Positions 3,759-18,549 of a stretch of DNA of 20,401 nucleotides are shown piece after piece (position 1 is the first letter of the stretch; each line of letters begins with the position of its first letter). Source of the DNA: a virus. The DNA is taken from positions 1-20,401 of the IMG/VR virus record IMGVR_UViG_3300017734_000119; one strand, given 5' to 3'. The translations under genes were made by a program, and so were the position numbers. Below the pieces are notes generated by a model. The model worked only from the letters and a program-made list of their open reading frames with translations, was not told where the DNA came from and did no database searches.

Positions 3759-3769
3759 ATTTTATATCC

Positions 3770-5158
3770 TTAAAGTGTTATCACAACTTTTATATCTTCT
3801 GTTTGATTAGCTGATCTAGTTACTGGCGCTCTATTTTCTATATATAGTACTTTTCCGGAAAGTTTGTTAACGTCATCTCGTGTAAATGCATCAGAGTCTG
3901 CGTCAGTTCCTTCTACAACAAGTGTGCCAGTTTGACCACCACCAGAAATACCTTCTTCTTCTTGAAAATCTAAAAATCCAGTATCTTCTGTTTGATGAAA
4001 ATATAATTTATCGCCAGCAACTTCATCAACTAAAGCTTTAGCACCAGAGGTTCCACCTGTTATTGTTGCATCTAAAAAGCCAACATTTGCTGCTGATTGC
4101 AATTTTAAAAATCTTAAAACTTTACCACTTGAATTTGAAAAATCAGAGTCTGTAGTAGGTTTTTTAGGATCTCTTATTAAAGCAACTTGTCTAAAATTTT
4201 GACCTACTATAAAATTGCTATCTTCAATTCCATTTGGTTTTGTATTAAACATTAATGATGTTGATTTAAATTCATCTCTTGGATCATTACCCATTCCACT
4301 ATCTGGTCCTAATATTACACGCGCAGTGGTATTTGAACCGCCACCACCAGTAAATGATACACTAGCAAAATTATATCCTTGACCCATTGTAAGGCCACTA
4401 TCAGCACTTGAATCTAATTCTATCTTTGTCACAGTTCCGCCAGATACAGTTGCAGTTGCTGCTGCTCTAACCCCATCACCATTTATATTTACAATAGGTG
4501 CACTAGTATATCCTGAACCACCGTTTGTCACACTGATACCAATAATTTGGCCTGGAACAGCTGCGTTTTGTATTAAAAGTTGCTGATCTTCTAAAACTGT
4601 ATGAGCTCTTCCTAGTGTAGCTGAATCTAATATTTTTTCGACTGGTACAAAATTTGCTGAAAGAAATTTATTTGCTCTTGTTGCACTCAATGTATATAAA
4701 AACTTCCAAACATAACCATCTGCATTTTTAAAAGCTTTTACAGATGTTCCTGTTGGCTTAACTGTAGAAGTAGTTGCTGCACCAGTTGACGATTTTCCTT
4801 GCTGTAAACACACATATACTTGGTTATCTTCAGTAAGAACGTAATAGCTGTTTACTGCTGGAATAGATGCTAAATTGTCGTCATATGCTGAATATATTGC
4901 GCCAGAAGACCAATTATATCTTGGTATAGTAAAAGTTACATCATTTGCAGATTTTATTGATTGTAATCCAGCTCTTAAATTTCTTATAGTTCTAGGTGTG
5001 TCTGTAACTGTAGGAATGTTTTCGCTATCATCCCATTGCTCGGATCTACCTATTCCTATATAATACCTATGTGTTGATGCTGAATCTGAAAAAGAAACTT
5101 CATCAAATACGGTTTGAACTATTTGTTTCTTAAAAGAGTCTGTAATTATCGCTGCCAT
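3770..5158 (-). CDS. gp8: Baseplate wedge protein gp8 homologue
   Basis: This is a 462-aa homologue of T4 gp8, which dimerises in each baseplate wedge and contacts gp7, gp10 and gp6. The matches I recognise are the N-terminal IITDSFKK followed by a YIGIGRSEQWDDSEN block (T4 has FITFGRSEPWSSNEN), NADGYVWKFLYTL (T4 GDGYVWEYLFEI), and the C-terminal SGKVLYIENRAPV...NQTEDIKVVITL (T4 SGEMIYMENRPPI...DQTEEINILFTF). The protein is well over 100 residues longer than T4 gp8 (334 aa). Two insertions explain this: a Gly-rich stretch with GGSGYTSAPIV at about 208-272, and a second beta-rich module at about 363-415 (ITGGTSGAKALV...GISGGGQTGTLVVEG). An AAGGAATAAGAT leader precedes the ATG, 11 bases after the previous stop. 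Confidence 0.9.
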   Translation of the reverse strand: MAAIITDSFKKQIVQTVFDEVSFSDSASTHRYYIGIGRSEQWDDSENIPTVTDTPRTIRNLRAGLQSIKSANDVTFTIPRYNWSSGAIYSAYDDNLASIPAVNSYYVLTEDNQVYVCLQQGKSSTGAATTSTVKPTGTSVKAFKNADGYVWKFLYTLSATRANKFLSANFVPVEKILDSATLGRAHTVLEDQQLLIQNAAVPGQIIGISVTNGGSGYTSAPIVNINGDGVRAAATATVSGGTVTKIELDSSADSGLTMGQGYNFASVSFTGGGGSNTTARVILGPDSGMGNDPRDEFKSTSLMFNTKPNGIEDSNFIVGQNFRQVALIRDPKKPTTDSDFSNSSGKVLRFLKLQSAANVGFLDATITGGTSGAKALVDEVAGDKLYFHQTEDTGFLDFQEEEGISGGGQTGTLVVEGTDADSDAFTRDDVNKLSGKVLYIENRAPVTRSANQTEDIKVVITL

Positions 5159-5169
5159 ATCTTATTCCT

Positions 5170-6111
5170 TTATGCTACTGTCACTTCACCTTGATTACCT
5201 ATAAGAGACCAGTTTGATCCATCCCATATACAAGTACATCCATCATTTTGTGCAAGTGCAAACGTTGTTCCTTGTGAAAAATTTGAAGGAGTCACAGTCA
5301 TCACACCTGCTCCTTTATTTGTAAATATTTTGTATTCTCCAACAGTGGTTCCATTTGCTAAACTTACAGCAAGAGGCGAACCTTTATTTCCTATTATATA
5401 TGTTACAGCACTATTTGCTGCGCCGTTTGATGTAATCGTAGTTGATGTAAAAGATGCTTTTGATAGACTAACAGACCCAGTTCCTTTTGCTGCAAGACGT
5501 AAATTTAAATTTGATCCGGAACCAGTTGCTGATATTGTAGGACCCGTTATTGACGCACCATTTGCAATTGTTATTTCATTTACAGCATTTGAGTTTGCAG
5601 TTATTTTTATAATTTCGTTTCCATTTACATCATTTATTGCAGTGCCAATTATTGGTGAATTTATAGTTGGTGTGGTTAAAGTTTTATTTGTTAAAGTGTC
5701 TGCTGAAGTTCTAGCAACTAAAGTGTCTGCACCAGAAGGAATTGTAACTGTACCACCATTTATTATAGATGCTATTGTTGGTGTAGTTAAAGTTTTATTT
5801 GTTAAAGTGTCTGTGGTATCTTGTAAAATAATTGTACCAGTTGCATTTGGCAAAGAAATTGTTCTATCTGCAGTAGGATTAATTGCAATCAATTTTGTTT
5901 CATGAGAGTCTGTACTTGTTCCTTCAAATTGTATAGTACCAATAGTACCTGAATCTTTTAATTTAACTAATTCACTAAGTGTAGAGCTATTTCCTCCAAG
6001 TTGTGTATAAATTTCTTGAAAATTAGCATTTATCTTAGTTCCTGCAGAACGTAAGGTATCGCCTGTTCCATCGTTCGCTGAAGAACCTATGTTTATATTT
6101 TGTCTTGTCAT
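5170..6111 (-). CDS. gp10-N-terminus-like fibre protein with TLTNKTLTTPTI repeats
   Basis: This is a 313-aa structural protein. Residues 1-40 (MTRQNINIGSSANDGTGDTL, then RSAGTKINANFQEIYTQLGG) match the start of T4 gp10 (MKQNINIGNVVDDGTGDYLR...KINENFDELYYELGDG), the part that ties gp10 into the wedge. The rest does not resemble the receptor-side portion of gp10. It holds two copies of DTLTNKTLTTPTI, a motif common in phage fibre shafts, then Thr/Asn/Gly-rich beta sequence. The C-terminal stretch (VGEYKIFTNKGAGVMTV...CTCIWDGSNWSLIGNQG) resembles the small beta-domain ending in a Trp-containing strand found in gp10-like and fibre proteins. It is far shorter than T4 gp10 (602 aa). It probably acts as a wedge-anchored short fibre or fibre adaptor. 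A late-promoter box lies directly upstream. Confidence 0.75.
   Translation of the reverse strand: MTRQNINIGSSANDGTGDTLRSAGTKINANFQEIYTQLGGNSSTLSELVKLKDSGTIGTIQFEGTSTDSHETKLIAINPTADRTISLPNATGTIILQDTTDTLTNKTLTTPTIASIINGGTVTIPSGADTLVARTSADTLTNKTLTTPTINSPIIGTAINDVNGNEIIKITANSNAVNEITIANGASITGPTISATGSGSNLNLRLAAKGTGSVSLSKASFTSTTITSNGAANSAVTYIIGNKGSPLAVSLANGTTVGEYKIFTNKGAGVMTVTPSNFSQGTTFALAQNDGCTCIWDGSNWSLIGNQGEVTVA
5667..5701. repeat. 35-bp direct repeat, copy 1
   Basis: This stretch is identical to 5778-5812 except for one base (G at 5674, A at 5785). It encodes one copy of the DTLTNKTLTTPTI fibre motif on the minus strand. Conservation at the DNA level as well as the protein level suggests a recent duplication or ongoing recombination between copies. 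Confidence 0.9.
5778..5812. repeat. 35-bp direct repeat, copy 2
   Basis: Second copy of the repeat at 5667-5701, with one mismatch and a 111-base (37-codon) period. It lies inside the gp10-N-like fibre gene and encodes the first DTLTNKTLTTPTI motif in reading order. Confidence 0.9.
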
Positions 6112-6132
6112 TTTCTATCCTACTTATAGTGT

Positions 6133-6140
6133 TATTTATA
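6133..6140 (-). promoter_or_regulatory. T4-type late promoter box TATAAATA
   Basis: The minus strand reads TATAAATA, the T4 late-promoter consensus recognised by gp55-bearing RNA polymerase. It fills the left part of the 29-base gap between the stop of the gp7-position gene and the start of the gp10-like gene. Transcription would begin about 6 bases downstream and leave a leader of roughly 15 bases that carries an AGGAT ribosome-binding site. Confidence 0.7.
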
Positions 6141-7106
6141 CTAGAAAGACGAGTCAGTAACTCTTCTAGTAAATATTTCATTATCCATTGTCTCTAATGT
6201 TAATGAGAAATCAGGTGTAGCATTTTCATCACTATCTCTAATACTACTATCATCAAATGTAAATGAGTTTGGTGTAATAATTTGTTTTACAGTGTGATAA
6301 GTTGTATCAAGATCGCTTAATGAAAAGTTTTGGTAATCACTAACAAGTTCATTTAAATTAGACTGTCTTACATTACTACCTTCTGAATCGATTAATACAG
6401 TTGATTGCACAAACGGTAACGTTGCAGATAATATTGCTTCTGATATTATTACAGGATCAGCTGCAGAATCTGGTACTGATATTTCTCCAATTGGAGAAGT
6501 TATAGCTTCGGTATCAGAAACAACTTGTCCTGCAAAAAAGAAACCAGATGGATGCACAAACTTTTTATAAAGCTCGCTCCATGTATCTACAGATATTTCT
6601 GTTTTTATTAATAGTCCAAAAGTTTGAAACAGTTCATTATTTTGTATAAATTTTATTGAATCAACTCCAATTTGACTTGCTGAATCTCCAATAATAAACA
6701 TAGATTCTTTACCATATTCAACTTCAGCTCTTTGCTGAAAGAATAATCTAAAAAATTCTTCTAGTGAAAATCTACTGCCTTTTAGTCTTGCAAGATCAGC
6801 TAATCTAGTTAAAGCATAACGCCTATCAGTAAAATTTTCTCCTGTTTTTAAACCGCCACCTAACTCACTAACTAAATTATTAAGTAAGTTTGCTGGCATT
6901 TCTTTTATATCTTTTTTAGCGAAAAACTGCTGTGCATTGCTTCCAAAGGCATGTGTTCCATCAGCAGAATCTATAAAATTGTAATATTTTTCTAAAAATG
7001 TAACTAAAGTCGGAAATTCAGAAGTATAAAACTCAGGTAGCGCTTCTCTTACTTTTCTATTTTGAAAAGATTTAAATCTTCTTTTACTTTTATAATCAAT
7101 TGACAT
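6141..7106 (-). CDS. Baseplate-associated structural protein in the gp7 position
   Basis: This 321-aa protein lies between gp6 and the gp10-like and gp8 genes, where T4 has gene 7. It does not resemble the 1032-aa T4 gp7. The sequence recalls a family of marine T4-like phage structural proteins: an N-terminal LPEFYTSEFPTLVTFLEKYY block (about 23-42), an LTRLADLARLKGS...FFRLFFQ block (about 99-123), EYGKESMFIIGDS, and LYKKFVHPSGFFFAGQVV (about 179-196). These read like a helical domain followed by a beta domain. I infer that it takes part in wedge assembly, possibly doing the linking work of gp7 in a reduced form. The start codon abuts the gp6 stop as TAAATG, which suggests translational coupling. 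The T4 equivalence is positional only. Confidence 0.7.
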   Translation of the reverse strand: MSIDYKSKRRFKSFQNRKVREALPEFYTSEFPTLVTFLEKYYNFIDSADGTHAFGSNAQQFFAKKDIKEMPANLLNNLVSELGGGLKTGENFTDRRYALTRLADLARLKGSRFSLEEFFRLFFQQRAEVEYGKESMFIIGDSASQIGVDSIKFIQNNELFQTFGLLIKTEISVDTWSELYKKFVHPSGFFFAGQVVSDTEAITSPIGEISVPDSAADPVIISEAILSATLPFVQSTVLIDSEGSNVRQSNLNELVSDYQNFSLSDLDTTYHTVKQIITPNSFTFDDSSIRDSDENATPDFSLTLETMDNEIFTRRVTDSSF

Positions 7107-8933
7107 TTATATACTAACCGCTGTATTTTGAAAATCTAAGACCGCTCTTGATGATGATGCTGTATCAATATCTAATATGTAATTTCTTAAAGGTCTTATA
7201 GTATTCTGATTTGCTGGAAATACTGATATACTTATTTCACTTCCTTCAAATGCAGTTGGCTTAAATCCTACTAAATTAACTATTCCAGTTAAATTGTTAT
7301 AGCTTCCTATATTATCAACTTCAATAGTGCCATCTATTGATATTATTTGTAATTTTGTAGTTCCTACTTTATTTTTTATAAAGCAAGTTTGAGAATTAAA
7401 AGTAAATTGAGAAGTTGTTAAAGACGAAATTGTATCATCTGGTTCAGCTAAGGAAACTGGAAATGATATAGTATAAGATAAAGGTATATTAGCAGTTGGT
7501 ACAAAACTTTGTTTTAACTTAATTTCCATTTTAGAGTTTAAAATTGATGGATCTAAAGCGTCTATAAGAGTTAATAAATTAGACCTTCTAAAAACTTTAT
7601 TAAATTTTTTAAGATTAGTTGTAAAAAAATTGTTTATTGTATTTTGAACTTGTGTTTGAAGAGCTTGTGAAGTTGAACCTGTTAAATCTGGATCTAAATT
7701 AAAGGTAGTTGAAATTTCTAATAAAGTTGTTACAGGATCTACATATTCTGTATTTATCGACATAATTGCCATATTATCTGTAAGGTCTGTTTTAATTCGG
7801 TCTTTAACATTTTGTTGTCTTGATGCGCTTACACCTGCTTTAAATTTTAAACCAATATACGTTATTCCGTATATTGCTGGTACAGAATCTGCTCCACTAT
7901 ATGATGTTACATCATCTAAAAATCCGCCATAGTTTGATTGTATTTGAGCTTTATAGTCTTCTGCAGTTACTAATCTTCTTTGAGAAGTAAAAGCTATAGG
8001 AGCGTTTTGTCTTATAGACTCAATGCTTTCTTTGTATGCGCCTCCAGCAGAAGCAGCCTCAGTTGTTGTCACAAGAGTATAATCTACACCATTAATAGTC
8101 ACATCTGATGATGGGGAAAATGAAGAAGCATTATTTGCAACTGTGCCTTGTGTTGATAAATAATCGATTACTATTTTATTACCAGCAACTGGTGCTTTTC
8201 CTGTAGTTGTGCCATCGCCAAATATTATTTCGTAAAATCCATTTGGAACTTCTTTTATTTGAAAAAACTTTGAATCATTATTAATTCTTAATGCACGTTG
8301 TATGTTAATATAAGTATCAAATGAAGATGAACTTGCAGTTGGAAAAACTCTTACTCTTATAGTTGAAGTATCCATTGTAATATCTGGAATTACATATATT
8401 TGATTATCAGCTATGTCACCTACAAAAAAAGTTTTAGTTTTTTCTATACCTTCAAAAACTGGTATAGCAACTCCGTCTGTAGAATTTAAAAACTGATATA
8501 ATCCTGTTCCATCGTCTGTGGCTATAAAATTTTCTCTTGTTTGAAAAGTGTATGAAATATCTCCAACACTTGACGTAAATGATGTGCCTCTTGGCAAAGT
8601 TATAAGAGTCGGTCTTGTCTCTGCTGATACTTGAACTGCAAGATTTAAGTCTGCTTTTGATGAAGAATATGATTTTGGAACGTATCCTAATCCTTCTGCT
8701 AATGATGCTACAGAGCTTCGAAGTTGCGCTGTGTTTATAAATGATTCGTTAAGAGCAAAGTTTGCATTTAAACCCATAAAATGTGTATTATATGCCAATA
8801 CATCTAATATATTACTTAAACCTGATGCTTCAAAATCGTAATCAGCAAACTCAGTTTGTTGCTTTAAATAATCTTTTAACCTACTTTTAATAGTGTTAAA
8901 ATCTAATTGAGTTGATCTAATAGTTGTTGCCAT
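7107..8933 (-). CDS. gp6: Baseplate wedge protein gp6
   Basis: This is a 608-aa homologue of T4 gp6 (660 aa), a member of the baseplate J-like superfamily. In T4, gp6 forms the ring that holds the wedges together and drives the hexagon-to-star change. The N-terminal region (about residues 15-75) shows the typical DYLKQQTEFADYDFEASGLS, LAYNTHFMGLNANFALNESF and TAQLRSSVASLAEGLGYVP blocks, close to the same region of T4 gp6. A central ESIRQNAPIAFTSQRRLVTA-EDY segment (about residues 300-325) matches T4 RELGTIKRETQQRCVTATDY. The C-terminal third is beta-rich and more diverged. Its start overlaps the end of gp25 as TAAATG, with no spare bases, so translation is likely coupled. Confidence 0.95.
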   Translation of the reverse strand: MATTIRSTQLDFNTIKSRLKDYLKQQTEFADYDFEASGLSNILDVLAYNTHFMGLNANFALNESFINTAQLRSSVASLAEGLGYVPKSYSSSKADLNLAVQVSAETRPTLITLPRGTSFTSSVGDISYTFQTRENFIATDDGTGLYQFLNSTDGVAIPVFEGIEKTKTFFVGDIADNQIYVIPDITMDTSTIRVRVFPTASSSSFDTYINIQRALRINNDSKFFQIKEVPNGFYEIIFGDGTTTGKAPVAGNKIVIDYLSTQGTVANNASSFSPSSDVTINGVDYTLVTTTEAASAGGAYKESIESIRQNAPIAFTSQRRLVTAEDYKAQIQSNYGGFLDDVTSYSGADSVPAIYGITYIGLKFKAGVSASRQQNVKDRIKTDLTDNMAIMSINTEYVDPVTTLLEISTTFNLDPDLTGSTSQALQTQVQNTINNFFTTNLKKFNKVFRRSNLLTLIDALDPSILNSKMEIKLKQSFVPTANIPLSYTISFPVSLAEPDDTISSLTTSQFTFNSQTCFIKNKVGTTKLQIISIDGTIEVDNIGSYNNLTGIVNLVGFKPTAFEGSEISISVFPANQNTIRPLRNYILDIDTASSSRAVLDFQNTAVSI

Positions 8934-9377
8934 TTATCTTAACCTCGTTAAGTTCACTTGTGTACTTTCAATTTGTGATGTATTAATCATTTTAAAAGTA
9001 ATTGTGACTTTTATTTCGTGTGAATCATCGCGTAAATTTGTATCAATATTTAATATTTGAATTCTTGGTTCGAATATTTCAACTGCTTGTATTATTTGTT
9101 CTCTTAAATCTTCGTCATCAACATCTGTGTTTAAAGCAAAAAGAAAAGAATTTAAATTACCACCAAATCTTGGTTGAAAAGGCTTTTCACTAAAGTTTGT
9201 TAATAATAAGTTCTTAATTGCTTGTTTAACAGAAGCAGCATGTTCTTTTTTAAAAATATCACCAGAAGCTTTTTTTGTGAAAGTTAAATCAATATCTTTA
9301 TAAGTTTCAGTTCTACTTGAAACTAAAGTATTAGTTCCTATATTACCATCTTCAATTGAAAAAGCTCTTGTTGGCAT
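8934..9377 (-). CDS. gp25: Baseplate wedge protein gp25 (GPW/gp25 family)
   Basis: This is a 147-aa member of the GPW/gp25 family, close in length to T4 gp25 (132 aa). In contractile injection systems, gp25 sits in the inner baseplate with gp6 and gp53 and provides the first binding sites for sheath subunits. The family's core signature is visible: a helix ending in LLLTNFSEKPFQPRFGGNL (about residues 57-75), then SFLFALNTDVDDEDLREQI and IFEPRIQILNIDT, then a final strand pair. An AAAGGAAAC ribosome-binding site precedes the start, and a late-promoter box (9395-9402) lies 17 bases upstream. gp25 and the genes after it can therefore be transcribed independently of the upstream hub genes. Confidence 0.93.
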   Translation of the reverse strand: MPTRAFSIEDGNIGTNTLVSSRTETYKDIDLTFTKKASGDIFKKEHAASVKQAIKNLLLTNFSEKPFQPRFGGNLNSFLFALNTDVDDEDLREQIIQAVEIFEPRIQILNIDTNLRDDSHEIKVTITFKMINTSQIESTQVNLTRLR

Positions 9378-9394
9378 TATGTTTCCTTTTGATC

Positions 9395-9402
9395 TATTTA
9401 TA
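9395..9402 (-). promoter_or_regulatory. T4-type late promoter box TATAAATA
   Basis: An exact TATAAATA on the minus strand lies in the 29-base gap between the 210-aa gene and gp25. The predicted transcription start is about 6 bases further on and gives a leader of about 11 bases containing AAAGGAAAC. It would open a wedge-gene transcript (25, 6, 7-position and onward). Confidence 0.72.
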
Positions 9403-9406
9403 TAAG

Positions 9407-10039
9407 TTATGCGTCAACAGTTGTTCTTAATACCTCTAATAATTCATTTGTAACCTGATTAATATTATTATATCTTGTTTCTACATTATTATTAAATGTA
9501 ACAGTCCAAGGTGATATTACTTCAGGCATTACTAATATAATTTGAGCATTAAGTGTGCCATCTGGATTATAATTATCGTAATCTAAAATCATTTTATCAA
9601 ATTGTATATTATCTTTCCAATATACAGCTAAATCAAATGTTTTTTCTATAGCAATTTTGCCGTTTAATCCAATTAATTCATATACAACGGCTAAACCTCT
9701 AGACATTAAGTAATTTAATCCGTCACTAACATCTAAGTTTTCACCGGGTTCTGCTCTATATAATCCTTCAACAACTTGTAATCTAAAATCTTTAAATTCT
9801 TTTGTTGAATCTTGAGAATTAATTGTTTTCATTGCTTCTGCATGTAATACATATTGCTTTGCTAGTAAAACTTTTTGATTGTCATCTGTAATATGTGTCA
9901 GTGTTACAGGATCGTTGTCACCGCCAAGAAACTTTGCCATTGATATTCCAGACGCAAGTTTTGTTTTACTTGTTATTGAATCTTGAAATACTGGATTGTA
10001 TTTTTGATCTACCAATAAATCTACTGTTGAAACTGCCAT
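9407..10039 (-). CDS. Structural protein of unknown function between needle and gp25
   Basis: I cannot assign a T4 counterpart to this 210-aa protein. It has no signal peptide, membrane segment or recognisable catalytic motif. The N-terminal half is mixed polar (MAVSTVDLLVDQKYNPVFQD, then SGISMAKFLGGDNDPVTLTH). A helical middle follows (LLAKQYVLHAEAMKTIN), then GLNYLMSRGLAVVYELIGLN and a C-terminal beta stretch (NAQIILVMPEVISPWTVTFN). It ends with a helix, NQVTNELLEVLRTTVDA. It follows the needle gene by 2 bases and precedes gp25, so co-expression with the baseplate is likely. I recall that marine T4-like phages often carry an uncharacterised virion protein at this place, which favours a baseplate component over an enzyme. 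Confidence 0.65.
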   Translation of the reverse strand: MAVSTVDLLVDQKYNPVFQDSITSKTKLASGISMAKFLGGDNDPVTLTHITDDNQKVLLAKQYVLHAEAMKTINSQDSTKEFKDFRLQVVEGLYRAEPGENLDVSDGLNYLMSRGLAVVYELIGLNGKIAIEKTFDLAVYWKDNIQFDKMILDYDNYNPDGTLNAQIILVMPEVISPWTVTFNNNVETRYNNINQVTNELLEVLRTTVDA

Positions 10040-10041
10040 TG

Positions 10042-11445
10042 TTATGCCTTATATAATTTAGTTGAGTTTTGACTTCTACCTAATTCGTCATTTCCTCTTC
10101 TTGCTGCTGTTTCTTTACCAACTATTCTACCTGTCGATAATGGTGAAAGCCTTGTAGCAAAAGGTGATATTGTCCCATCTGATATAAGAGCTGAAATAAA
10201 CGTAGTGTTACTTGCGTTATTTGGATCTCTTAATTTTGATCTAGCTTCTTTAGTCGTTAAGTCTACTTTAGATACGCCACCGTAGTGTGCTGTACGATCT
10301 AATCTGTTAAATAATTGATTAAAGTCATCGATATGAACTCTCTTTATTGCTACACCTGAATTCTCTAATGCATCATTTATTATAGCTGTTGTAGGTAAAA
10401 CAGTGTTAGAATCTGCAGCAGAAGTAGTGTTATTTACGTTTGTCCCAGGTGAACCGGCGCTTCCTTCAGGAGCTTGACCGGCGGTATTAGCAAAATCTGC
10501 ATGATTAGCAGAATCAGCTTTACCAGTTAAGTCTCCATGAAAAGTTGTAGCATACATTGCAGTAGCATGAACTGAAGTAGAATTAACTCTTGGTATATGC
10601 GCAGTGTGACCGTAGTAGACCATATTAGCACCTCCAATAGTTCCACTGTCACCTAATACCGCAAGTGATGATGCTGTAATGTTAGCGCTCTTTGTTGAAA
10701 GAGTAACTTCATTTTCAGCAGTCATCGTTAGTGTTCCTCCGGCTGCGTAGTTATGATCAACTTGAACATTTTCAGCAAACGATCCTTTTATAATGTCATT
10801 CTTGTCACCATGTATTAGCGTAGTGGATCCTCCACCAATAGTTTCTGACTTACTTCCTACAATTTGGGTTTCAACCGTTCCGGCAACATCAGTAATAAGA
10901 CCTCTTCTTATATTTTGTTCCATATCGCCTTTGACGTTCACATTAAAGTCTCCACCAACTTCAACATCAAAATCTCCTGCAACTTTTAATTTTAAGTTAC
11001 CATTATATTGTAATTCACCATCACCATCAACTATAACCTTTTCATCCTGTGCTGTTACTCTTACTGTATTTTTTGTTGATGAATATACTACTGAACCATC
11101 TGCACGCATCTCAACGCCTGATCCAGAATTATGTCTTATCATAACTCTTTCAGAACCTGGTGTATCGTCATATTCAACAATATGACCTGATGCAGTTTCT
11201 TTGACTTGTGAATTAGGATAAGTTGATACTGCTTCTTCATTTAAATCAAAATCAATATCTTTTACTGAACCACCTAGTTCAACGTTTACTCTTTTAAATC
11301 CTCTTGCTATTTCGTTGACTGACGATGTTTCTTCATATTCAACTTTAGGAAATATACCGCTAGGATCAGAAAAGCCGTTTTCTTTATTTTTTAATGAACT
11401 AGCTTTTCCTTCAGGTACTGTAAAATTTTGAGATTCCATTGACAT
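10042..11445 (-). CDS. gp5: gp5 C-terminal beta-helix needle as a separate protein
   Basis: This 467-aa protein corresponds to the T4 gp5 C-terminal needle, without the OB fold or lysozyme. Residues 80-103 (VKETASGHIVEYDDTPGSER) match T4 gp5C (METESGHIQEFDDTPGQER). Residues 147-226 form ten consecutive octads of the VxGxxxxx type, e.g. VAGDFDVE, VGGDFNVN, VKGDMEQN, IRRGLITD, VAGTVETQ, the repeat that winds three chains into the triangular needle. Residues 24-34 (GFSDPSGIFPK) match the linker that in T4 follows the OB domain (GFSDPTGQYPR). A C-terminal extension of about 240 residues includes a His-containing segment (about 280-315) and a fibre-like FHGDLTGKADSANHADFANT. AGGAT precedes the first ATG by 6 bases. 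It is the membrane-piercing spike; the extension has no T4 counterpart. Confidence 0.88.
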   Translation of the reverse strand: MSMESQNFTVPEGKASSLKNKENGFSDPSGIFPKVEYEETSSVNEIARGFKRVNVELGGSVKDIDFDLNEEAVSTYPNSQVKETASGHIVEYDDTPGSERVMIRHNSGSGVEMRADGSVVYSSTKNTVRVTAQDEKVIVDGDGELQYNGNLKLKVAGDFDVEVGGDFNVNVKGDMEQNIRRGLITDVAGTVETQIVGSKSETIGGGSTTLIHGDKNDIIKGSFAENVQVDHNYAAGGTLTMTAENEVTLSTKSANITASSLAVLGDSGTIGGANMVYYGHTAHIPRVNSTSVHATAMYATTFHGDLTGKADSANHADFANTAGQAPEGSAGSPGTNVNNTTSAADSNTVLPTTAIINDALENSGVAIKRVHIDDFNQLFNRLDRTAHYGGVSKVDLTTKEARSKLRDPNNASNTTFISALISDGTISPFATRLSPLSTGRIVGKETAARRGNDELGRSQNSTKLYKA

Positions 11446-11454
11446 AATTTAATC

Positions 11455-13647
11455 CTATCTCCTAAATAATTTTTTTAAATTGCTTGTATCGAGTTTTTTA
11501 GCTATTGAATCGACTGAAATTTTATTCTTATCAAATCCGCCAGTAAGTTTACCAATAATGGCATCACCTTGTAACTTTGCTGCAGAATTTTTAGGATCAT
11601 TTATAGCTTGAGATATTCCTTTATCAATATCTATTTTTCCTTTTTTAAGATCATCAAATGCTTTTAATCCAGCGTCTAAATCTTTTTGTGCATCAGGCGG
11701 AAGTTCTTTACCAGTTGCTAAATCTATTTTTTCAAAGTCTTTTTGTATTTTACTAAAACTAAAAGGTTCGACTGATTTTGTTTTTGATCCTTGAGCTATA
11801 ACTGAAGGTTTTGTAAAAACTATTTCTTTTCTACTAGGAGCGTTACCGCCTTCTTCTGGATTAGTTATAGAGTTTGCTTTTCCATACACGTCTCTTAAAG
11901 AATCCATATCTATTGCGGGACCTAATTTGTTTTGATCCATTTCGTAATCACCAAATAAGTTAAGCCCTGGAACAACTTTATAAGCTTTAGATATAAGTTT
12001 TTTTAATGATGCTAATTGCTCATCATTAACTGGATTTTCAGTGTTTGCAACAATAGTAACTTGAACACCAGTTAAATCATATGAAGAAGTGTCTGGATTT
12101 CTAGTTTCATCTATAGGTCTACCTCTTTGTATTCTTCCATCTGTTAATATTAAGTAATGAGCTTGTATTCCATAAATTTTAGGTTTAGCATTTATTTTAA
12201 CTAATGCACTTTTAATATTTTTTTCAGTATTAACTAAATTTTGTAAATCATTTGTTTTTGATATTTCATGAATAGAACTAGCGTTTACCTTTTCCGGTGG
12301 GCCCCAAATTTTATCAGTCCAACCTACAATAAAAGCTACAACTTGATTATTAGTTCCTGTTTTCATTCTAGAACTATTTGAAAATTCAGTTTCTAATTCA
12401 TCAGAAGTATCCACAAATTCAAATTTATAAGTTTTTGGCGTATTATATCCAGCCCACGTAGATTTATTAAAACCTAAATTAGATATATTACTTGGTGACA
12501 TATTCGGTGTTAAAGAGCCTTTTTGTATTAACTTATTTGTGTTTGTGTCTAACGAAAGTTTTCCAGTAATTGGATCTACACCTTCTATTATATTTGGAAT
12601 TTTTGTGTTTAATTTTGGCGGGATAACACCATCTGGTAATCCTTTCATTAAATTTTTAACACTTGGCGGAAATTGAGCTTTTATGCCTTTCACTTTACCT
12701 AGCAAGTTAGCAAATGTATTAGATCCAGATCTACCAGCTCCTGGAATTAACGCATTAGGATCATAACCTAAACCTGCGTTTTGAGCTTCTTTAAGTTTTG
12801 ATTTAACTTCAGTTTGTACTTCTTTAGTCATTTTACTTTCAACTGTAATTCCAGCATCTTTATCATTAATAGCAGCAGTTGCTTGTTCTAAAATTTTAGT
12901 AGAAATATTTGTAGGTAAAACAGACTGAGCTGTTTCTTTTATTTTACTTGAGTTTGCAGAAGTTCGAACTTTTAATTCGTCCATTATTGCATTAACGCTA
13001 CCTTGTGTAAATACCACTTTATTTAAATTATTAGTAGATAAATTAGTTTTTTTAAACAATGTTGTTAAATTTGATGTTTGAGATGACGTTGCGTCTCCTG
13101 ATCCGTCGGCTGCGCCTGGCTCCATTTTAGCTATTCTTACTCTTTTGGTAAAATTAGCTGTAGGTTTTGCTCCTTCTTGTAATCCTTTAAATCCACCAAA
13201 AGTTGCACCTAAAAGATTAAAAGGTGATGCATTACCTGTAATTTCTTGAACATTTAAACTTGAAGCAGAGGCTCTCATTGGTCCGCCAATATCAGCAATC
13301 ATCTTTTGTTGAAAAGCTACCATTTCAGGCGAAGCAGCTGCTTCAAACTCTGCTTGTGTTACTTCGGGTTTTTCATATTCTATTCTAATTCTTTGATGAA
13401 AGCTTTTTAAAGATATGATACTTCCATTATATGTATATTGAGAAAGATCATTAAATATTGAAGGCATATTGTTAGTAGTAAAAGCGTTTTTATCATCAGT
13501 TTGGCTTCTAGCAACTCTTATATCTGTTATTTTTGCAATTACTTCTGGTCGGCCTATCGTTAGTACTGTACCATTAAATGTACTATTTTCATTAGCGCCT
13601 CTTGGTTTATCACCAGCTTTCATATTAATAAATGATTTATCAGCCAT
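11455..13647 (-). CDS. Large hub-region protein with zinc-ligand-less amidase-like (pseudo-amidase) domain
   Basis: This 730-aa protein is encoded between the two gp5-like genes. Residues about 1-95 are beta-rich (TVLTIGRPEVIAKITDIRV, ISLKSFHQRIRIEYEKP). Residues 100-400 are low-complexity, Ala/Lys/Ser/Asn-rich and probably helical or flexible. Residues about 430-590 resemble the N-acetylmuramoyl-L-alanine amidase type 2/PGRP fold (T7 lysozyme): VVAFIVGWTDK, then AHYLILTDGRIQRGRPIDE (T7 GYHFIIKRDGTVEAGR), TGVQVTIVAN (T7 SIGVCLVGG), and LFGDYEMDQNKLGPAIDM (T7 AHHEVAPKACPSFDL). In this hand alignment all three zinc ligands (T7 H17, H122, C130) are replaced, although the Tyr and Lys positions are kept. 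That suggests a structural or peptidoglycan-binding role. The C-terminal 110 residues are Lys/Asp-rich helices. It starts at a TAATG overlap with the OB-lysozyme gene. Confidence 0.7.
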   Translation of the reverse strand: MADKSFINMKAGDKPRGANENSTFNGTVLTIGRPEVIAKITDIRVARSQTDDKNAFTTNNMPSIFNDLSQYTYNGSIISLKSFHQRIRIEYEKPEVTQAEFEAAASPEMVAFQQKMIADIGGPMRASASSLNVQEITGNASPFNLLGATFGGFKGLQEGAKPTANFTKRVRIAKMEPGAADGSGDATSSQTSNLTTLFKKTNLSTNNLNKVVFTQGSVNAIMDELKVRTSANSSKIKETAQSVLPTNISTKILEQATAAINDKDAGITVESKMTKEVQTEVKSKLKEAQNAGLGYDPNALIPGAGRSGSNTFANLLGKVKGIKAQFPPSVKNLMKGLPDGVIPPKLNTKIPNIIEGVDPITGKLSLDTNTNKLIQKGSLTPNMSPSNISNLGFNKSTWAGYNTPKTYKFEFVDTSDELETEFSNSSRMKTGTNNQVVAFIVGWTDKIWGPPEKVNASSIHEISKTNDLQNLVNTEKNIKSALVKINAKPKIYGIQAHYLILTDGRIQRGRPIDETRNPDTSSYDLTGVQVTIVANTENPVNDEQLASLKKLISKAYKVVPGLNLFGDYEMDQNKLGPAIDMDSLRDVYGKANSITNPEEGGNAPSRKEIVFTKPSVIAQGSKTKSVEPFSFSKIQKDFEKIDLATGKELPPDAQKDLDAGLKAFDDLKKGKIDIDKGISQAINDPKNSAAKLQGDAIIGKLTGGFDKNKISVDSIAKKLDTSNLKKLFRR

Positions 13648-14555
13648 TATGCAGCTCCAATTCCTAGTTTTTTGTCAATTTCAAGTGCAAAAGCTATTCT
13701 TTTTTGCGTACTTCCAGGTGCCGGTCTTTCATAGTATCTTTCAAAAATTCGAGAAGCTTCTTCAGGCGTTTGAGCTTTTCTTAATTTACCAAGACCTAAA
13801 TACGGATATTTTCCAAGTTCATATACTATAAATTTTAATTGAGCATATAGTGTTCTAAAATTTAAATTTGAATCTTTACAAAATCTTTTAAGCTCTTGCA
13901 ATCTAAAACCTGCAGCTTTACTTGGATTCCATTGCGCTATTCCAAAAGATCCTTCATCTTTAAATCCTGAAACTATAGTTGGATTTAGATTTTTACCAGA
14001 TTCTGCCATTAAGTTTCCTATTATACCAGCACTTTGTGCAGATGTAAACGATCCACCTTCTTTAGATAAGAAAAAATTATATGCTTTTTCTGCGTTATTC
14101 TGCCCTGTTAAATTGCCTTCACTAACTGAAGGCACACCGGGTTTGACACCCTGTGGTGTTGAATCAGGAACAACTGAGCTTCCGTCATATTCATTCTTTG
14201 TCGAAGGCGCTTCATTAACATCATTTCTTTTTGTTTCAACTTTAGGGATTGATCCCATAACTAAAGGGCATTGCGAATCTTTTCCATCTAAAAATATTCC
14301 AAAAACTTGTGCTCTATTTTTTATTTGAGAATTCGCTCCAATTCCAGAAGTACCACCTTCTGTAACAGGTATTAAAACACTTGCCCATGGTAAATCTTGA
14401 TTTGGTATATCAATAGTATTTGACGTATGAATACCATAAACTCTTACTTTAACTCTATCAAGTTTTAAAGGATCATTGACGTCTACAACTGTTCCAATAA
14501 ACCATCTTACTTGATCACCGTAATATTCAGATTCTAATATATGCGCGTATGCCAT
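13647..14555 (-). CDS. gp5: gp5 N-terminal OB fold fused to phage-tail-type lysozyme
   Basis: This 302-aa protein has two parts. Residues about 14-105 match the T4 gp5 OB domain: VRWFIGTVVDVNDPLKLDRV, KVRVYGIH, DLPWASVLIPVTEGGTSGIG and VFGIFLDG (T4 NWFVGVVEDRMDPLKLGRVR, LPWMSVIQPITSAAMSGIG, VYGHFLD). In T4 this domain plugs the gp27 ring. After a Ser/Pro/Asn linker (about 106-150), residues 152-297 form a lysozyme-like domain of the phage-tail lysozyme type: SAGIIGNLMAESG with probable catalytic Glu185, then FGIAQWNPSKAAG and a helical C-terminus. This is not the T4-lysozyme (GH24) type used by T4 gp5. The needle that follows in T4 is encoded elsewhere (10042-11445). The start is shared with the gp27-like stop as TAATG. 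Confidence 0.87.
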   Translation of the reverse strand: MAYAHILESEYYGDQVRWFIGTVVDVNDPLKLDRVKVRVYGIHTSNTIDIPNQDLPWASVLIPVTEGGTSGIGANSQIKNRAQVFGIFLDGKDSQCPLVMGSIPKVETKRNDVNEAPSTKNEYDGSSVVPDSTPQGVKPGVPSVSEGNLTGQNNAEKAYNFFLSKEGGSFTSAQSAGIIGNLMAESGKNLNPTIVSGFKDEGSFGIAQWNPSKAAGFRLQELKRFCKDSNLNFRTLYAQLKFIVYELGKYPYLGLGKLRKAQTPEEASRIFERYYERPAPGSTQKRIAFALEIDKKLGIGAA

Positions 14556-15913
14556 TATATTGCAATTTCCTTTCCAATAGATGCGACTTTACCACATAAT
14601 AATTCACTAGTAACTTTATCACCATTAAATGAATGTTTAGCACCTATTATTAGATAATCACCTGATTTTTTTAAATCCTTCGAAGCATTATGTGTATCTT
14701 CGGTAGGATCAGCATCTAAAAATAAGACTCTTATAGTTTTCCCTAAAGTGTAATTATCATTGCCAGTTATAAACTCTCTACCTTTCACAGTAATGCACAA
14801 AGGAGTTTTAGATAAAAAACCTTTTATAGCTTTACCAGTAATATGTTTCATATGATCGCCACCTAAAGTTTCATCGCTGTAACTTCTGTAACCAGCATTG
14901 TACGAGCCACCTCTGTAACTACCACTAGAAGATATTTTACTAATAACTTTAGAATTATAACTTGATAAATTCTTTCCTTTTATCTTATATTCTGGTCCAT
15001 AATTATATTTTGAATTTTGACCTCCTAAAAGATTTTGCACTAATAAGCTTTTAAACACATTATCAACATCAAAATGTTTTTCTTCAGATATTCCTCTATG
15101 CACATCGTAAAAACTATATGAAGCGCCAACATAACCTTTTCGTAAAAGATTAATTAATTCTTCAGAGTTTTCGTACTTATATTCTATTATGCTATATAAT
15201 TTTGATTCTCCTGATGAATGAGATAAACTACTAGTATAAACATATGGCCTTGTAATATTATTTACAGGCTCAGATAACATTTTTCCTAAATCTTTAAATA
15301 CTAAATTATCAACGCCTAAAGGCGAATACAAAAAGAAAGGTAAACCGTTATATGTCACTGATCTATTTTTTATCCATAAAGCAGCATCTATAGGATCTAA
15401 GTTTGGTATTATTACTTTTAAATTCTTAGTAGAATCTGTACCATCTATTACTAAAGACTTATTTATATAACTAGAAATTAAACTATTAATAATACTAGAA
15501 GGAGAACCACTATAAGATTTATTTACATTTTGAGCTGCAGCTTCGAACATATGATATTCAGTGCAATGTATTACAACTGTTTCATTTCTTTCGTCAAGTT
15601 TAATTACCTTTTCTATTTCATCAATAACAAAATCTTTTCTTATTTCATTTCCAGTTTGAACTTCTTCTATTTGTTTTATTACAATTGATAGTTTTTCACC
15701 ACCTTGAAAATCTACAGTTTGAACTATATTAATTTGATCTATGAAAGATAACCTCATAGTTAAATAAGGTTTTTCTATATGTTCATAAATTACAAATTCA
15801 CTCACAACAGCAGATATTTCTACTTCAGATTGCACACGATCTGATGTTATAATAGCGCTCACAAGAGAGTATTCAGTAGATCCTTCTGCAGTAGAAGCAA
15901 TGTCTAATTCCAT
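14555..15913 (-). CDS. gp27: Baseplate hub protein, gp27-like
   Basis: This 452-aa protein lies directly upstream of, and is translationally coupled with, the gp5 OB-fold gene, the same pairing as gp27 and gp5 (fused in VgrG proteins). The N-terminal half is beta-rich and reads like a hub tube-type domain: SEFVIYEHIEKPYLTMRLSF, then GGEKLSIVIKQIEE, FVIDEIEKVIKLDE and TVVIHCTEYHMFEAAAQNV. The C-terminus has SGDYLIIGAKHSFNGDKVTS, a pattern typical of hub/late-control proteins. A Ser/Gly/Tyr-rich loop (about 328-346) interrupts it. Gene order and this C-terminal signature support the call; sequence identity to T4 gp27 (391 aa) is too low to claim by eye. It would form the trimeric ring that the OB-lysozyme protein caps and would connect to the tail tube. 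Confidence 0.68.
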   Translation of the reverse strand: MELDIASTAEGSTEYSLVSAIITSDRVQSEVEISAVVSEFVIYEHIEKPYLTMRLSFIDQINIVQTVDFQGGEKLSIVIKQIEEVQTGNEIRKDFVIDEIEKVIKLDERNETVVIHCTEYHMFEAAAQNVNKSYSGSPSSIINSLISSYINKSLVIDGTDSTKNLKVIIPNLDPIDAALWIKNRSVTYNGLPFFLYSPLGVDNLVFKDLGKMLSEPVNNITRPYVYTSSLSHSSGESKLYSIIEYKYENSEELINLLRKGYVGASYSFYDVHRGISEEKHFDVDNVFKSLLVQNLLGGQNSKYNYGPEYKIKGKNLSSYNSKVISKISSSGSYRGGSYNAGYRSYSDETLGGDHMKHITGKAIKGFLSKTPLCITVKGREFITGNDNYTLGKTIRVLFLDADPTEDTHNASKDLKKSGDYLIIGAKHSFNGDKVTSELLCGKVASIGKEIAI

Positions 15914-15914
15914 A

Positions 15915-16646
15915 TTATCCTCTTACAGCTCTTTTAAAACTTGAAACTAAGTTAGTAACTTGACTAGGTTTAATTATTTTAATTTGTCTAAGATTCTCAT
16001 TTATTGTGAAATAAACATCTTCATGAGTTTTTTCTGTAAGTAAAGCTCCAGGCCCTACTGTAGGATCTATGTCTACAATTGCACCAGTTCCATCTATATA
16101 ATGAGAAGCAGATTGATATTCTTTTGAGCTTGACGCTCCAACTAAAGATTCTAATGTTCCGGAAGAATTTGTTGATGAAAATAATTCGCCGCTTATAGAA
16201 AAAGCCACATTACCTTCAACAACTATTTGTCCCAAATCTGGATTTCTTTTTATAATTTTACCAGATACGCCTGATGTTCCTCCTGAAATAGTTTGACCTA
16301 TTTTAAATTTATTTGCAAAGTCAGGGTCTTTTGTTGTTATTGTAGTATTTGGAAATATTTTTTTAGTATATGCGTCAAGTTCTGTTCTAATAAGAGGCCA
16401 ACCTTGTTCTCTAATATCGTCGTTAATAAGATAAAAAGTCCAATAGTATAAAGGAGTTCCATATAATTGTATTGAAACTTGATCTGGTCTGAACCCTTCT
16501 TGAATAGTATGAACGTTTAAAAACGTTATATTATTTTTAATCTCATCTATTAAATCAACATATATTGATAAGTTTTGGAATATAACTGTATCAACTTCAT
16601 CTCCAAATTTATATGTTAAATTTTCAAATTCATTAAAATAAAGCAT
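15915..16646 (-). CDS. gp53: Baseplate wedge protein gp53
   Basis: This is a 243-aa homologue of T4 gp53 (196 aa), which with gp6 and gp25 builds the wedge core and links wedges around the hub. Residues 52-76 (FRPDQVSIQLYGTPLYYWTF) correspond to T4 SPRPEELANAIYGNPQLYWVL. The C-terminus NENLRQIKIIKPSQVTNLVS corresponds to T4 ENEKLRQIKIIAKSDINSFM. The extra length is an inserted module at about residues 115-168 (FKIGQTISGGTSGVSGKIIK, IVVEG, FSISGELFSSTNSSGTL) that resembles an insertion in the gp8 homologue of this window. The start lies in a TAATG overlap with the gp48-like stop, and one base separates its stop from the next ATG. Confidence 0.88.
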   Translation of the reverse strand: MLYFNEFENLTYKFGDEVDTVIFQNLSIYVDLIDEIKNNITFLNVHTIQEGFRPDQVSIQLYGTPLYYWTFYLINDDIREQGWPLIRTELDAYTKKIFPNTTITTKDPDFANKFKIGQTISGGTSGVSGKIIKRNPDLGQIVVEGNVAFSISGELFSSTNSSGTLESLVGASSSKEYQSASHYIDGTGAIVDIDPTVGPGALLTEKTHEDVYFTINENLRQIKIIKPSQVTNLVSSFKRAVRG

Positions 16647-17992
16647 TAGTAACCCTTTTCTATATCTTGTTGCTCAATAGCTCTGTGCTCAACAAACGCT
16701 AATGTTAAATCAGTTTCATTAGCTTTTCCATCATTTTTAAATCCACCACCCGTTGGATTTATTGTGTGAGAAACATTTCTTAAATAACATGGAAGCAACT
16801 TAGGTATATTTCTGTTTTCGGAATCTTTAAAATTAAATTTAATCTTAAAAGCATTTGGAAAATTATATCCTAAACTTACATTTGATTCACCACCTACAGG
16901 AACTTTAAACGCTCTTGGATACATTTCTTTTCTAAATAGTTTAATTATTTTTTGTATAATTTCACCTTCTTCAGGCGATGTTGGTATCATTTTAAATTGA
17001 AATGTAAACTCTCTTACAGTTACGCCGTTAAATAATTTTCTTACATTTGGATTAACTATTATTCTGTTGGCAATTCCCGCTGCAGCTCCCAGTCCTTGAT
17101 TTAAATTCATTCCAGGGATTGCACTTATAAGTTTTGTTGCAGTTAATCTAGCAGTTTCAGATTCAGCAGCTGCTGCTATTTTAACTTGACCAGATAATAC
17201 AGTATCTAACACAGTTTTTCCAACATCCATCATTTGGCCAACAGCAGCTCTAACCCCATCACCACCTGCTTCAAATGCTGCTAAAGCTGCTCCACCGGTG
17301 GCACCTAAATTTGCGTCACCATATTGAACGCCATCAAGAAAAGCTTGAGAAGGTGGAAAATACATAGTTACAATAGGCGCAGTTGTTTTTGGAAAAAATC
17401 CTAATTTAAAGTTACTAGAGCTCGCAGTAGTTTTTTTAATATTATTAAATTCAGCTTTTGCATCTTGTTTGGTTTTAAATTCATTAACACCGCTGAAGTC
17501 ACTAAAATCACCGATGCTATTACTAGAAATACCGGCATAACCTGAATTACTGGCGTCGTCATTAAAAGAAACAGTAGAAGGAGCACCAATATCACTTCCA
17601 CCGCCACCTATATTACTTGCATTAGGATCGTCTTCAACTTTTGCTTTTGTTGTTTCTTGAGATTGAATATTATCTGTAGTTGTTGTTATATGATTTTTTT
17701 GTGATTGACCTGGACTAGCAGTTGTGTATTCTAACACTTGAAATTTTATAGTAGCAGAATATGCTGGATTGCCACTAACGTCTATAGGATATTCTAATCT
17801 ACTTGCAGTAAGAGCGCTTCTTGATAATGGGCTTTGTAATTTTCCAGATAAAGATTGACCAGTTATATCATCATCTAACCCCATAGAATTAGAATTACCA
17901 ACACTTTTAATTTCATTGCCTACCCCTGGATTTCCAAAATTCTTCTCTCCTAAAGGACCAGCTTTTTGATTTATAATGCTAAGTTCTGACAT
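16646..17992 (-). CDS. gp48: Baseplate tail-tube cap protein, gp48-like
   Basis: This 448-aa protein is the first gene of the minus-strand operon. The C-terminal third carries a tube-protein-like block, VNPNVRKLFNGVTVREFTFQ followed by FKMIPTSPEEGEIIQKIIKL (about residues 313-352), LPCYLRNVSHTINPTGGGF, and a final ETDLTLAFVEHRAI strand. This is the pattern of T4-like gp48, which caps the hub and begins tail-tube assembly with gp54. Residues about 90-195 are Ser/Asn/Gly/Thr-rich and probably disordered. Residues 225-310 are Ala/Gly-rich helices. At 448 residues it is longer than T4 gp48 (364 aa). A late promoter box (18029-18036) and an AAGGAT ribosome-binding site precede the start. gp54 is the main alternative, but the tube-like gene at 19141 suits that role better. 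Confidence 0.78.
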   Translation of the reverse strand: MSELSIINQKAGPLGEKNFGNPGVGNEIKSVGNSNSMGLDDDITGQSLSGKLQSPLSRSALTASRLEYPIDVSGNPAYSATIKFQVLEYTTASPGQSQKNHITTTTDNIQSQETTKAKVEDDPNASNIGGGGSDIGAPSTVSFNDDASNSGYAGISSNSIGDFSDFSGVNEFKTKQDAKAEFNNIKKTTASSSNFKLGFFPKTTAPIVTMYFPPSQAFLDGVQYGDANLGATGGAALAAFEAGGDGVRAAVGQMMDVGKTVLDTVLSGQVKIAAAAESETARLTATKLISAIPGMNLNQGLGAAAGIANRIIVNPNVRKLFNGVTVREFTFQFKMIPTSPEEGEIIQKIIKLFRKEMYPRAFKVPVGGESNVSLGYNFPNAFKIKFNFKDSENRNIPKLLPCYLRNVSHTINPTGGGFKNDGKANETDLTLAFVEHRAIEQQDIEKGY

Positions 17993-18045: not shown

Positions 18046-18549
18046 ATGGGATATTCAGGAAGATACCAAGTCAAAAATAAATCAAAATACAAAGGAGATC
18101 CATCTTCGGTTGTGTATAGATCATTATGGGAAAGAGCTGCATTTGGCTGGTGCGATAGTAACGTTAAAGTAAAAGGATGGAGTTCAGAAGAAGTTATCAT
18201 TCCATACTACTATGACGTTGATAAAAAGTATCACAAATACTATGTTGATTTAAAAATAGTGTTTGAAGAAAAAACGATCTTAGTTGAAATAAAACCAGAA
18301 AAAGAAACTGTTCCACCGGTAGGTGCAAAAAAAACTAAAAGATATATTACTGAAGGTCTTACTTATGTAAAAAATATGAATAAGTGGGAAGCTGCAAATG
18401 AATATGCTCAGGATCGTGGATGGGAGTTTCACGTGTGGACTGAAAAAACTTTACAAGAAATGAAATTATTGCATAAGCCAGTTCCTGGAAAACTTAAGAA
18501 GTATACTCCAATGAAACCATTTAGAAAAAAGCGTAAGAAAAAGATATAA
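18046..18549 (+). CDS. gp4: Head completion protein gp4 (nuclease fold)
   Basis: This is a 167-aa homologue of T4 gp4, a head-completion protein with a PD-(D/E)XK nuclease fold needed before tail joining. It begins GYSGRYQVKNKSKYKGDPSS and continues with VYRSLWERAAFGWCD, WSSEEVIIPYYYD, KTKRYITEGLTYVKNMNKWE and YAQDRGWEF, all close to the T4-like family. The candidate catalytic set is complete: Glu29 in SLWER, Asp68 in YYVDLKI, and Glu81-x-Lys83 in LVEIKPE. The C-terminus is a basic tail (FRKKRKKKI) suited to DNA contact. There is no strong ribosome-binding site; only CGGA lies just before the ATG. It starts the rightward operon, and a late-promoter-like octamer overlaps its stop codon. Confidence 0.92.
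   Translation: MGYSGRYQVKNKSKYKGDPSSVVYRSLWERAAFGWCDSNVKVKGWSSEEVIIPYYYDVDKKYHKYYVDLKIVFEEKTILVEIKPEKETVPPVGAKKTKRYITEGLTYVKNMNKWEAANEYAQDRGWEFHVWTEKTLQEMKLLHKPVPGKLKKYTPMKPFRKKRKKKI

Follow-up and report, generated by a model that had tools for sequence, protein, structure and literature searches.

The gp5 protein of bacteriophage T4 is the textbook piercing device. Its OB domain binds the hub protein gp27 (PMC7650644), and the chain is cut at Ser351/Ala352 into gp5* (OB and lysozyme) and gp5C (the needle), which stay together as (gp27-gp5*-gp5C)3, with the needle restraining the lysozyme to about one-tenth of its activity until the needle departs (PMC3004832, PMC7650644). That gp5 layouts vary is already in print: RaK2 gp078 is described with a β-helix between two unmatched regions and a C-terminal lysozyme, no OB domain being named (PMC3622015), and CBB has baseplate lysozymes of unusual layout (PMC5259590), but the descriptions of both, on which our comparison is based, contain no divided gp5 of the kind reported here. 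In the baseplate of Anabaena phage A-1(L), as in our locus, wall enzymes are described beside the spike, several per device, but there they are carried on the hub protein and the spike is a single chain of OB and β-strand (PMC10966104). Among the matches listed in a search of the open PMC literature, outside which many subscription papers fall, no title or abstract concerns a divided gp5, and recurrent division, a constant middle gene and reciprocal hydrolase decay are likewise absent. We find that a divided gp5 is real and recurrent in a group of uncultured T4-like phages, and that in the record analyzed here it is accompanied by two extra enzyme-like parts, amidase-fold and M15-like, that apparently lack active sites.

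The DNA analyzed is a virus record of 20.4 kb, hereafter the window, which contains a T4-like baseplate operon with its genes on the minus strand. In transcription order, the operon runs from a tail-tube-cap-like gene (16646–17992) and a gp53-like gene (15915–16646) through hub27, a 452-aa gp27-like hub protein (14555–15913), the 302-aa OB-lysozyme (13647–14555), a 730-aa middle protein (11455–13647), the 467-aa needle (10042–11445) and a 210-aa peptidase M15/LAS-like protein (9407–10039) to the gp25-like and then the gp6-like genes. The original prediction, that gp5 is split with a 2.2-kb gene between its halves, gave these coordinates, strands and lengths correctly for the OB-lysozyme, middle and needle genes. 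Sequence comparison identifies, in this order, an OB-lysozyme, an amidase-fold protein lacking Zn ligands, a needle bearing the GFSDP motif and an M15-like protein that likewise lacks its ligands. The hub27/OB-lysozyme and OB-lysozyme/middle gene junctions are TAATG stop-start overlaps, an AGGAG (11459–11463, minus strand) lies 13 bases ahead of the needle start, and only 2 bases separate the needle and 210-aa genes; this arrangement suggests genes that are expressed together to build a single structure. The hub27 protein matches the tail protein family phrog_350 (1.1e-43) and nothing in a Pfam search; its tie to the OB domain is the adjacency of this phrog_350 protein, and its position beside the OB-lysozyme gene suggests the role of T4 gp27. 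Within the 20.4-kb record, itself a fragment, there is no match to a PAAR tip protein (PF05488). A head-closure protein (18046–18549, phrog_218) has an N-terminal match to a TnsA-like endonuclease domain (7.9e-15).

The OB domain and lysozyme predicted for 13647–14555 are borne out, the gene product matching Pfam Gp5_OB (1.7e-7, 32 bits against a cut-off of 25), Phage_lysozyme2 (PF18013, 3e-26, residues ~153–293) and phrog_430 (3.1e-33), with residues 12–103 aligning to T4 gp5 residues 4–100 (E = 2.5e-13). Sequence comparison thus supports an OB fold, whose absence had been named as an outcome that would refute the original prediction. No match to the T4-type lysozyme family PF00959 is found in this protein at E = 0.1. 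Its PF18013 lysozyme is related to phi29 morphogenesis protein 1, and the Glu of its GNLMAESG motif, which we take to be the catalytic residue, aligns with that of GNMQSES in the phi29 protein. The needle aligns over residues 75–246 with T4 gp5 residues 386–557 (E = 4.3e-13) and matches phrog_430 columns 328–585 (3.1e-32), while the Pfam Gp5_trimer_C score of 22.7 is below the cut-off of 30.9. Its GFSDPSGIFP (residues 24–33) aligns with GFSDPTGQYP of T4 gp5 in a piece covering T4 residues 108–135 that is weak when taken alone (2.6 bits); Gp5_OB columns 70–123 match needle residues 13–70 at 0.0026, below the Pfam cut-off. The GFSDP segment had been placed after the T4 OB fold, but by the published domain boundaries it lies inside the OB-fold domain (residues 1–129) and not in the linker (130–173) (PMC7650644).

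We consider it likely that these genes encode a T4-like cell-puncturing device in which gp5 is divided between OB and GFSDP, assembled as set out below and with a slot for hydrolases at the division. The components of T4 gp5 recur in the window, as read from the genes alone: an OB domain, a GFSDP segment, a lysozyme and a β-helix needle, accompanied by a gp27-like hub protein, and the OB-lysozyme and needle, encoded separately here, are described as separate chains in the T4 virion also. Unlike T4, the window has two genes in place of one cut chain and a PF18013 rather than a PF00959 lysozyme; GFSDP goes with the needle and not with gp5*, the boundary preceding GFSDP and not coinciding with the T4 cut, and the amidase-fold and M15-like proteins are additional. 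Measured against the T4 central spike, the N-terminal OB and C-terminal needle are present, and the PF00959 lysozyme and the single proteolysed chain are absent. By its parts the device is a T4-type spike, presumably by its function too, but it is not gp5 as defined by one chain and a T4 lysozyme.

In the proposed assembly, the gp27-like hub would carry an OB-lysozyme trimer. Beneath the OB ring a trimer of needle proteins would dock by way of its N-terminal ~70 residues, at a junction that the middle protein would fill or brace. On contraction, the needle would pierce the outer membrane and detach, and its departure would free the lysozyme to open the peptidoglycan. The two genes would supply directly what are nearly the T4 cleavage products, OB and lysozyme for gp5* and the needle for gp5C. 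It is plausible, by analogy, that separate genes replace T4-style maturation cleavage, an idea that fits because T4 obtains nearly the same two pieces by cutting gp5. A trimer-trimer docking surface, foreseen as a consequence of the split, would indeed be needed, but it is not a new demand, as mature T4 already has gp5* and gp5C as separate chains (PMC3004832). The suggestion that the OB part was moved upstream is unnecessary: the transcription order of hub27, OB and needle is the domain order of a single chain, and hydrolase genes placed between OB and GFSDP suffice.

We then surveyed 164 stretches, the window and 163 loci, with iterated profiles. Similarity to the window proteins governed the choice of loci (best 80 of each), which overlap and include some contigs twice. 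The split that was to be sought in relatives recurs: hub27, OB-lysozyme, middle gene and needle form a cassette in 91 of the 164 stretches, a count that describes relatives of the window and not phages at large, since selection by similarity to the window favors the same layout. One further stretch is split without the lysozyme and middle gene (Melnitz), 23 are single-chain, and 49 have no OB or no needle match. The 92 split loci, Melnitz included, comprise 61 distinct OB frames and 69 distinct needle frames, and in 90 loci the two frames lie 1.8–2.5 kb apart. The middle gene is a constant part of this cassette and not a stray insertion, a point that the original prediction had missed. That the split might be an assembly error, or a broken gene heading for loss, gains something from three stretches (L005, L067 and L096) in which the middle gene occupies two frames; yet 91 stretches are alike at OB-lysozyme identities down to 47%, with the OB and needle frames intact, and splits occur also in deposited phage genomes, so that this explanation is already contradicted and we give it practically no credence.

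The distribution of GFSDP follows the division as predicted, at the start of the needle. Of the distinct frames from split loci, a profile of the needle N-terminus matches 68 of the 69 needles but none of the 61 that carry OB; the remaining needle, that of Melnitz, matches this segment in other profile searches, although the tail of the Gp5_OB profile finds a match in the Melnitz OB gene as well. Among 21 distinct fused frames, nine match the GFSDP-bearing segment, which then lies between OB and needle, and the 12 without a match count against the divided-gp5 account. An ancestor of OB-linker-needle form had been postulated, and chains with this architecture, OB-GFxDP-needle and no lysozyme match, do exist in HTVC008M (350 aa), Mosig (361 aa) and WH25-B. 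Roth20 (T4-type) provides a further single-chain form.

The strong conservation of the needle N-terminus (~70 residues) could be read differently, with the needle gene alone forming the spike through an unrecognized N-terminal hub-binding part and the OB-lysozyme acting as a separate lysin; the description of RaK2 gp078, with its β-helix, C-terminal lysozyme and unnamed OB (PMC3622015), offers a parallel. We regard a separate lysin as improbable, and decidedly so, since the OB gene adjoins and overlaps the gp27-like gene, the OB domain is the part reported to bind gp27 in T4 (PMC7650644), and every split record tested has a single OB gene. A search for a second, complete gp5 in 16 related records, which include two complete phage genomes, gives a single place in each record for the needle and a single place for the body of the OB profile; the OB-profile body exceeds the curated cut-off in 13 of the 16. 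The OB and needle frames are separate in 13 of these records as well, and form a single frame in C48C1, G013 and G014.

Several named phages carry related splits, consistent with a division of gp5. In the Methylophilales phage Melnitz (EXVC044M), an OB-enzyme gene adjoins a GFxDP-needle gene as in the window, but the enzyme is VanY-like (22.4 bits, below the cut-off of 25) and no gene lies between; neither gp5 nor OB domain occurs as a term in the searchable text of the isolate paper (PMC9004378). Rhizobium phage RHph_I1_18, whose record gives the host strain as Rhizobium phaseoli I1_18, likewise has an OB + PF18013 gene (300 aa) apart from its needle gene (635 aa), but with only a 116-aa gene between them; a Peptidase_M15_3 match on this needle (0.0011, below the cut-off) sits at the needle position of a domain homologous to the 210-aa protein. 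In the Agrobacterium phages OLIVR5 and Atu_ph04 (Pootjesviridae) and the Ochrobactrum phage ORM_20, the OB gene is also separate from the needle gene, with one OB place and one needle place per record, far from one another (~39 kb in OLIVR5); unlike the window, the two tested for the enzyme, OLIVR5 and Atu_ph04, carry a CHAP enzyme on the OB gene. The gp5 of Caulobacter phage Cr30 (701 aa) resembles the window in combining OB, a PF18013 lysozyme and a needle, but does so in one chain, in which the GFSDP-bearing segment is unmatched and Pfam names no M15 domain; at its C-terminus it shares a related part with the RHph_I1_18 needle.

A gp6 tree of 48 rows (32 split, 15 fused and one, S-PM2, left unlabeled with its OB in a 982-aa frame), from which RHph_I1_18, OLIVR5, Atu_ph04 and ORM_20 are left out, places 30 split rows in one group (93/94) with C48C1 as sister (100/99). 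Melnitz groups with pelagiphages of the single-chain form (97/99); contig G012 stands apart. The split/fused label requires at least three changes on this tree, and a single change suffices in none of 200 bootstrap trees. Judged from this phylogeny, gp5 was likely divided at least twice, in the window clade and in Melnitz; we keep the count at two or more instead of three because the tree contains a number of long branches and one of the gains could equally be explained as a loss. C48C1 was considered as a split phage and rejected, as its 196-aa protein comprises OB and a short needle, and Pfam matches nothing in a later 451-aa protein. That the sister of the window clade has a short, lysozyme-free single chain counts against the divided-gp5 account. 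Contig G012 (L164) holds a 3076-aa frame (3068–12298, minus strand) with the needle in a separate gene. This frame contains, in order, OB, a PF18013 domain without its Glu, a PF00959 lysozyme (1e-22) and a second amidase half (8e-7); the first amidase half is seen by eye only (E = 0.58), with PF00959 lying between the halves, and the long remainder looks fibre-like by eye and has no Pfam match. Their presence in a shared frame links OB, lysozyme and amidase to one another.

The middle protein was identified through its homologs. In the window, Pfam gives a weak Amidase_2 match (0.0058), and Pfam and PHROGs give nothing beyond it; the homologs in L124 and L129 have clear Pfam amidase matches (1e-11 and 5e-13), and the L129 domain aligns with T7 lysozyme at 1e-16. 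For the structural model, weak overall (mean pLDDT 71.7, pTM 0.37), Foldseek against the PDB returns amidases, AmpD and T7 lysozyme at a probability of 1.00 and E values of 1.1e-3 to 1.7e-2, none at E ≤ 0.001. Model and homologs together place an Amidase_2/T7-lysozyme fold at residues ~435–585 of the middle protein. For the N- and C-terminal parts we find no relative outside the cassette. The window protein matches one record by tblastn at E = 0.001 in 50,697 phage records; the intact L129 homolog matches 1475, and the 20 matches listed cover only the C-terminal amidase part. A middle gene in two frames, from sequencing error or real decay, is seen at 7986–9058 in L005, 8843–10668 in L067 and 993–3205 in L096. 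The middle-protein model also matches, with probability 1.00, a 1016-aa protein of Vibrio phage VP-1 named baseplate hub subunit and tail lysozyme (BFVD A0A4P2TEB5), perhaps another enzyme swap in gp5.

With ligand columns set by L129 and by the residues that we take to bind Zn in T7 lysozyme, the H/H/D positions read G/D/G in the window. A live hydrolase with unconventional metal ligands, giving the device two enzymes, would be in keeping with the retained amidase fold and with conservation at G504 (invariant) and H497 (at least 90%) among 41 family members; we find it unlikely, as all three T7-lysozyme-type positions are changed and at least one ligand is missing in 53 of 62 distinct lysozyme/middle-protein pairs, with varied replacements. 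These pairs derive from 83 stretches in which both frames are complete. The catalytic-type Glu of the lysozyme, present in the window, is kept in 54 of the 62 pairs: 53 keep the Glu and have broken Zn ligands, eight have lost the Glu and keep the ligands intact, one (L053) has both sites intact, and none has neither. Mapped onto a hub tree that was built quickly and has long branches, this pattern needs one change for the lysozyme and two for the amidase, and with only about three changes the 53/8/1/0 tally mostly reflects shared ancestry; the complementarity of lysozyme and amidase is suggestive and no statistical proof of selection.

The 210-aa protein (9407–10039) is homologous to a C-terminal domain fused on 29 of the 69 distinct split needles. 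Its model (pLDDT 90.8) yields nothing significant by Foldseek alone (best E = 0.29); VIA-align, in which a best Z of 7–8 is common for models that lack a clear match, ranks first the Zn DD-peptidase 1lbu (Z = 9.2, rmsd 3.7, 128 aligned), followed by hedgehog N domains (Z = 5–6) and other LAS-fold enzymes, with the first unrelated row at Z = 3.7. The model thus points to a Peptidase M15/LAS fold. The Zn-ligand pattern of this fold is, we assume, H/D/H, and the protein appears to lack it: across 30 sequences of the family, none of the 12 invariant or 27 almost invariant columns is a His. Alignment by hhalign with the Cr30/Melnitz needle ends (probability 66%) places the Cr30 D and last H opposite V and I, with the first H just outside the match. 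A search with the family profile at E = 0.01 returns the L164 needle only, and neither Cr30 nor Melnitz.

The interval between OB and needle may be a slot into which evolution repeatedly places new wall hydrolases, and in which outdated enzymes would persist as folds without active sites. A broader reading is more speculative and, in our view, doubtful: the spike would be a three-body machine of OB-lysozyme socket, middle protein turned structural spacer after loss of amidase activity, and separate needle; among T4-like phages generally, the OB socket would serve as a port through which wall enzymes are exchanged, splitting and swapping would be a usual adaptation to new walls, and selection would preserve one or more live hydrolases in each device. 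Phages that encode both products separately allow a direct test of the purpose of T4 cleavage, and the cassette and its relatives form a natural series in which one device is found with PF18013, amidase, VanY-like, CHAP and PF00959 enzymes and with apparently dead enzyme remnants. GenBank product names conceal the split: both halves in RHph_I1_18 are called 'baseplate hub subunit and tail lysozyme protein', and the OLIVR5 OB-CHAP gene (L181, 4918–5832) and needle gene (L175, 7363–9951) bear near-identical baseplate hub/tail lysozyme names.
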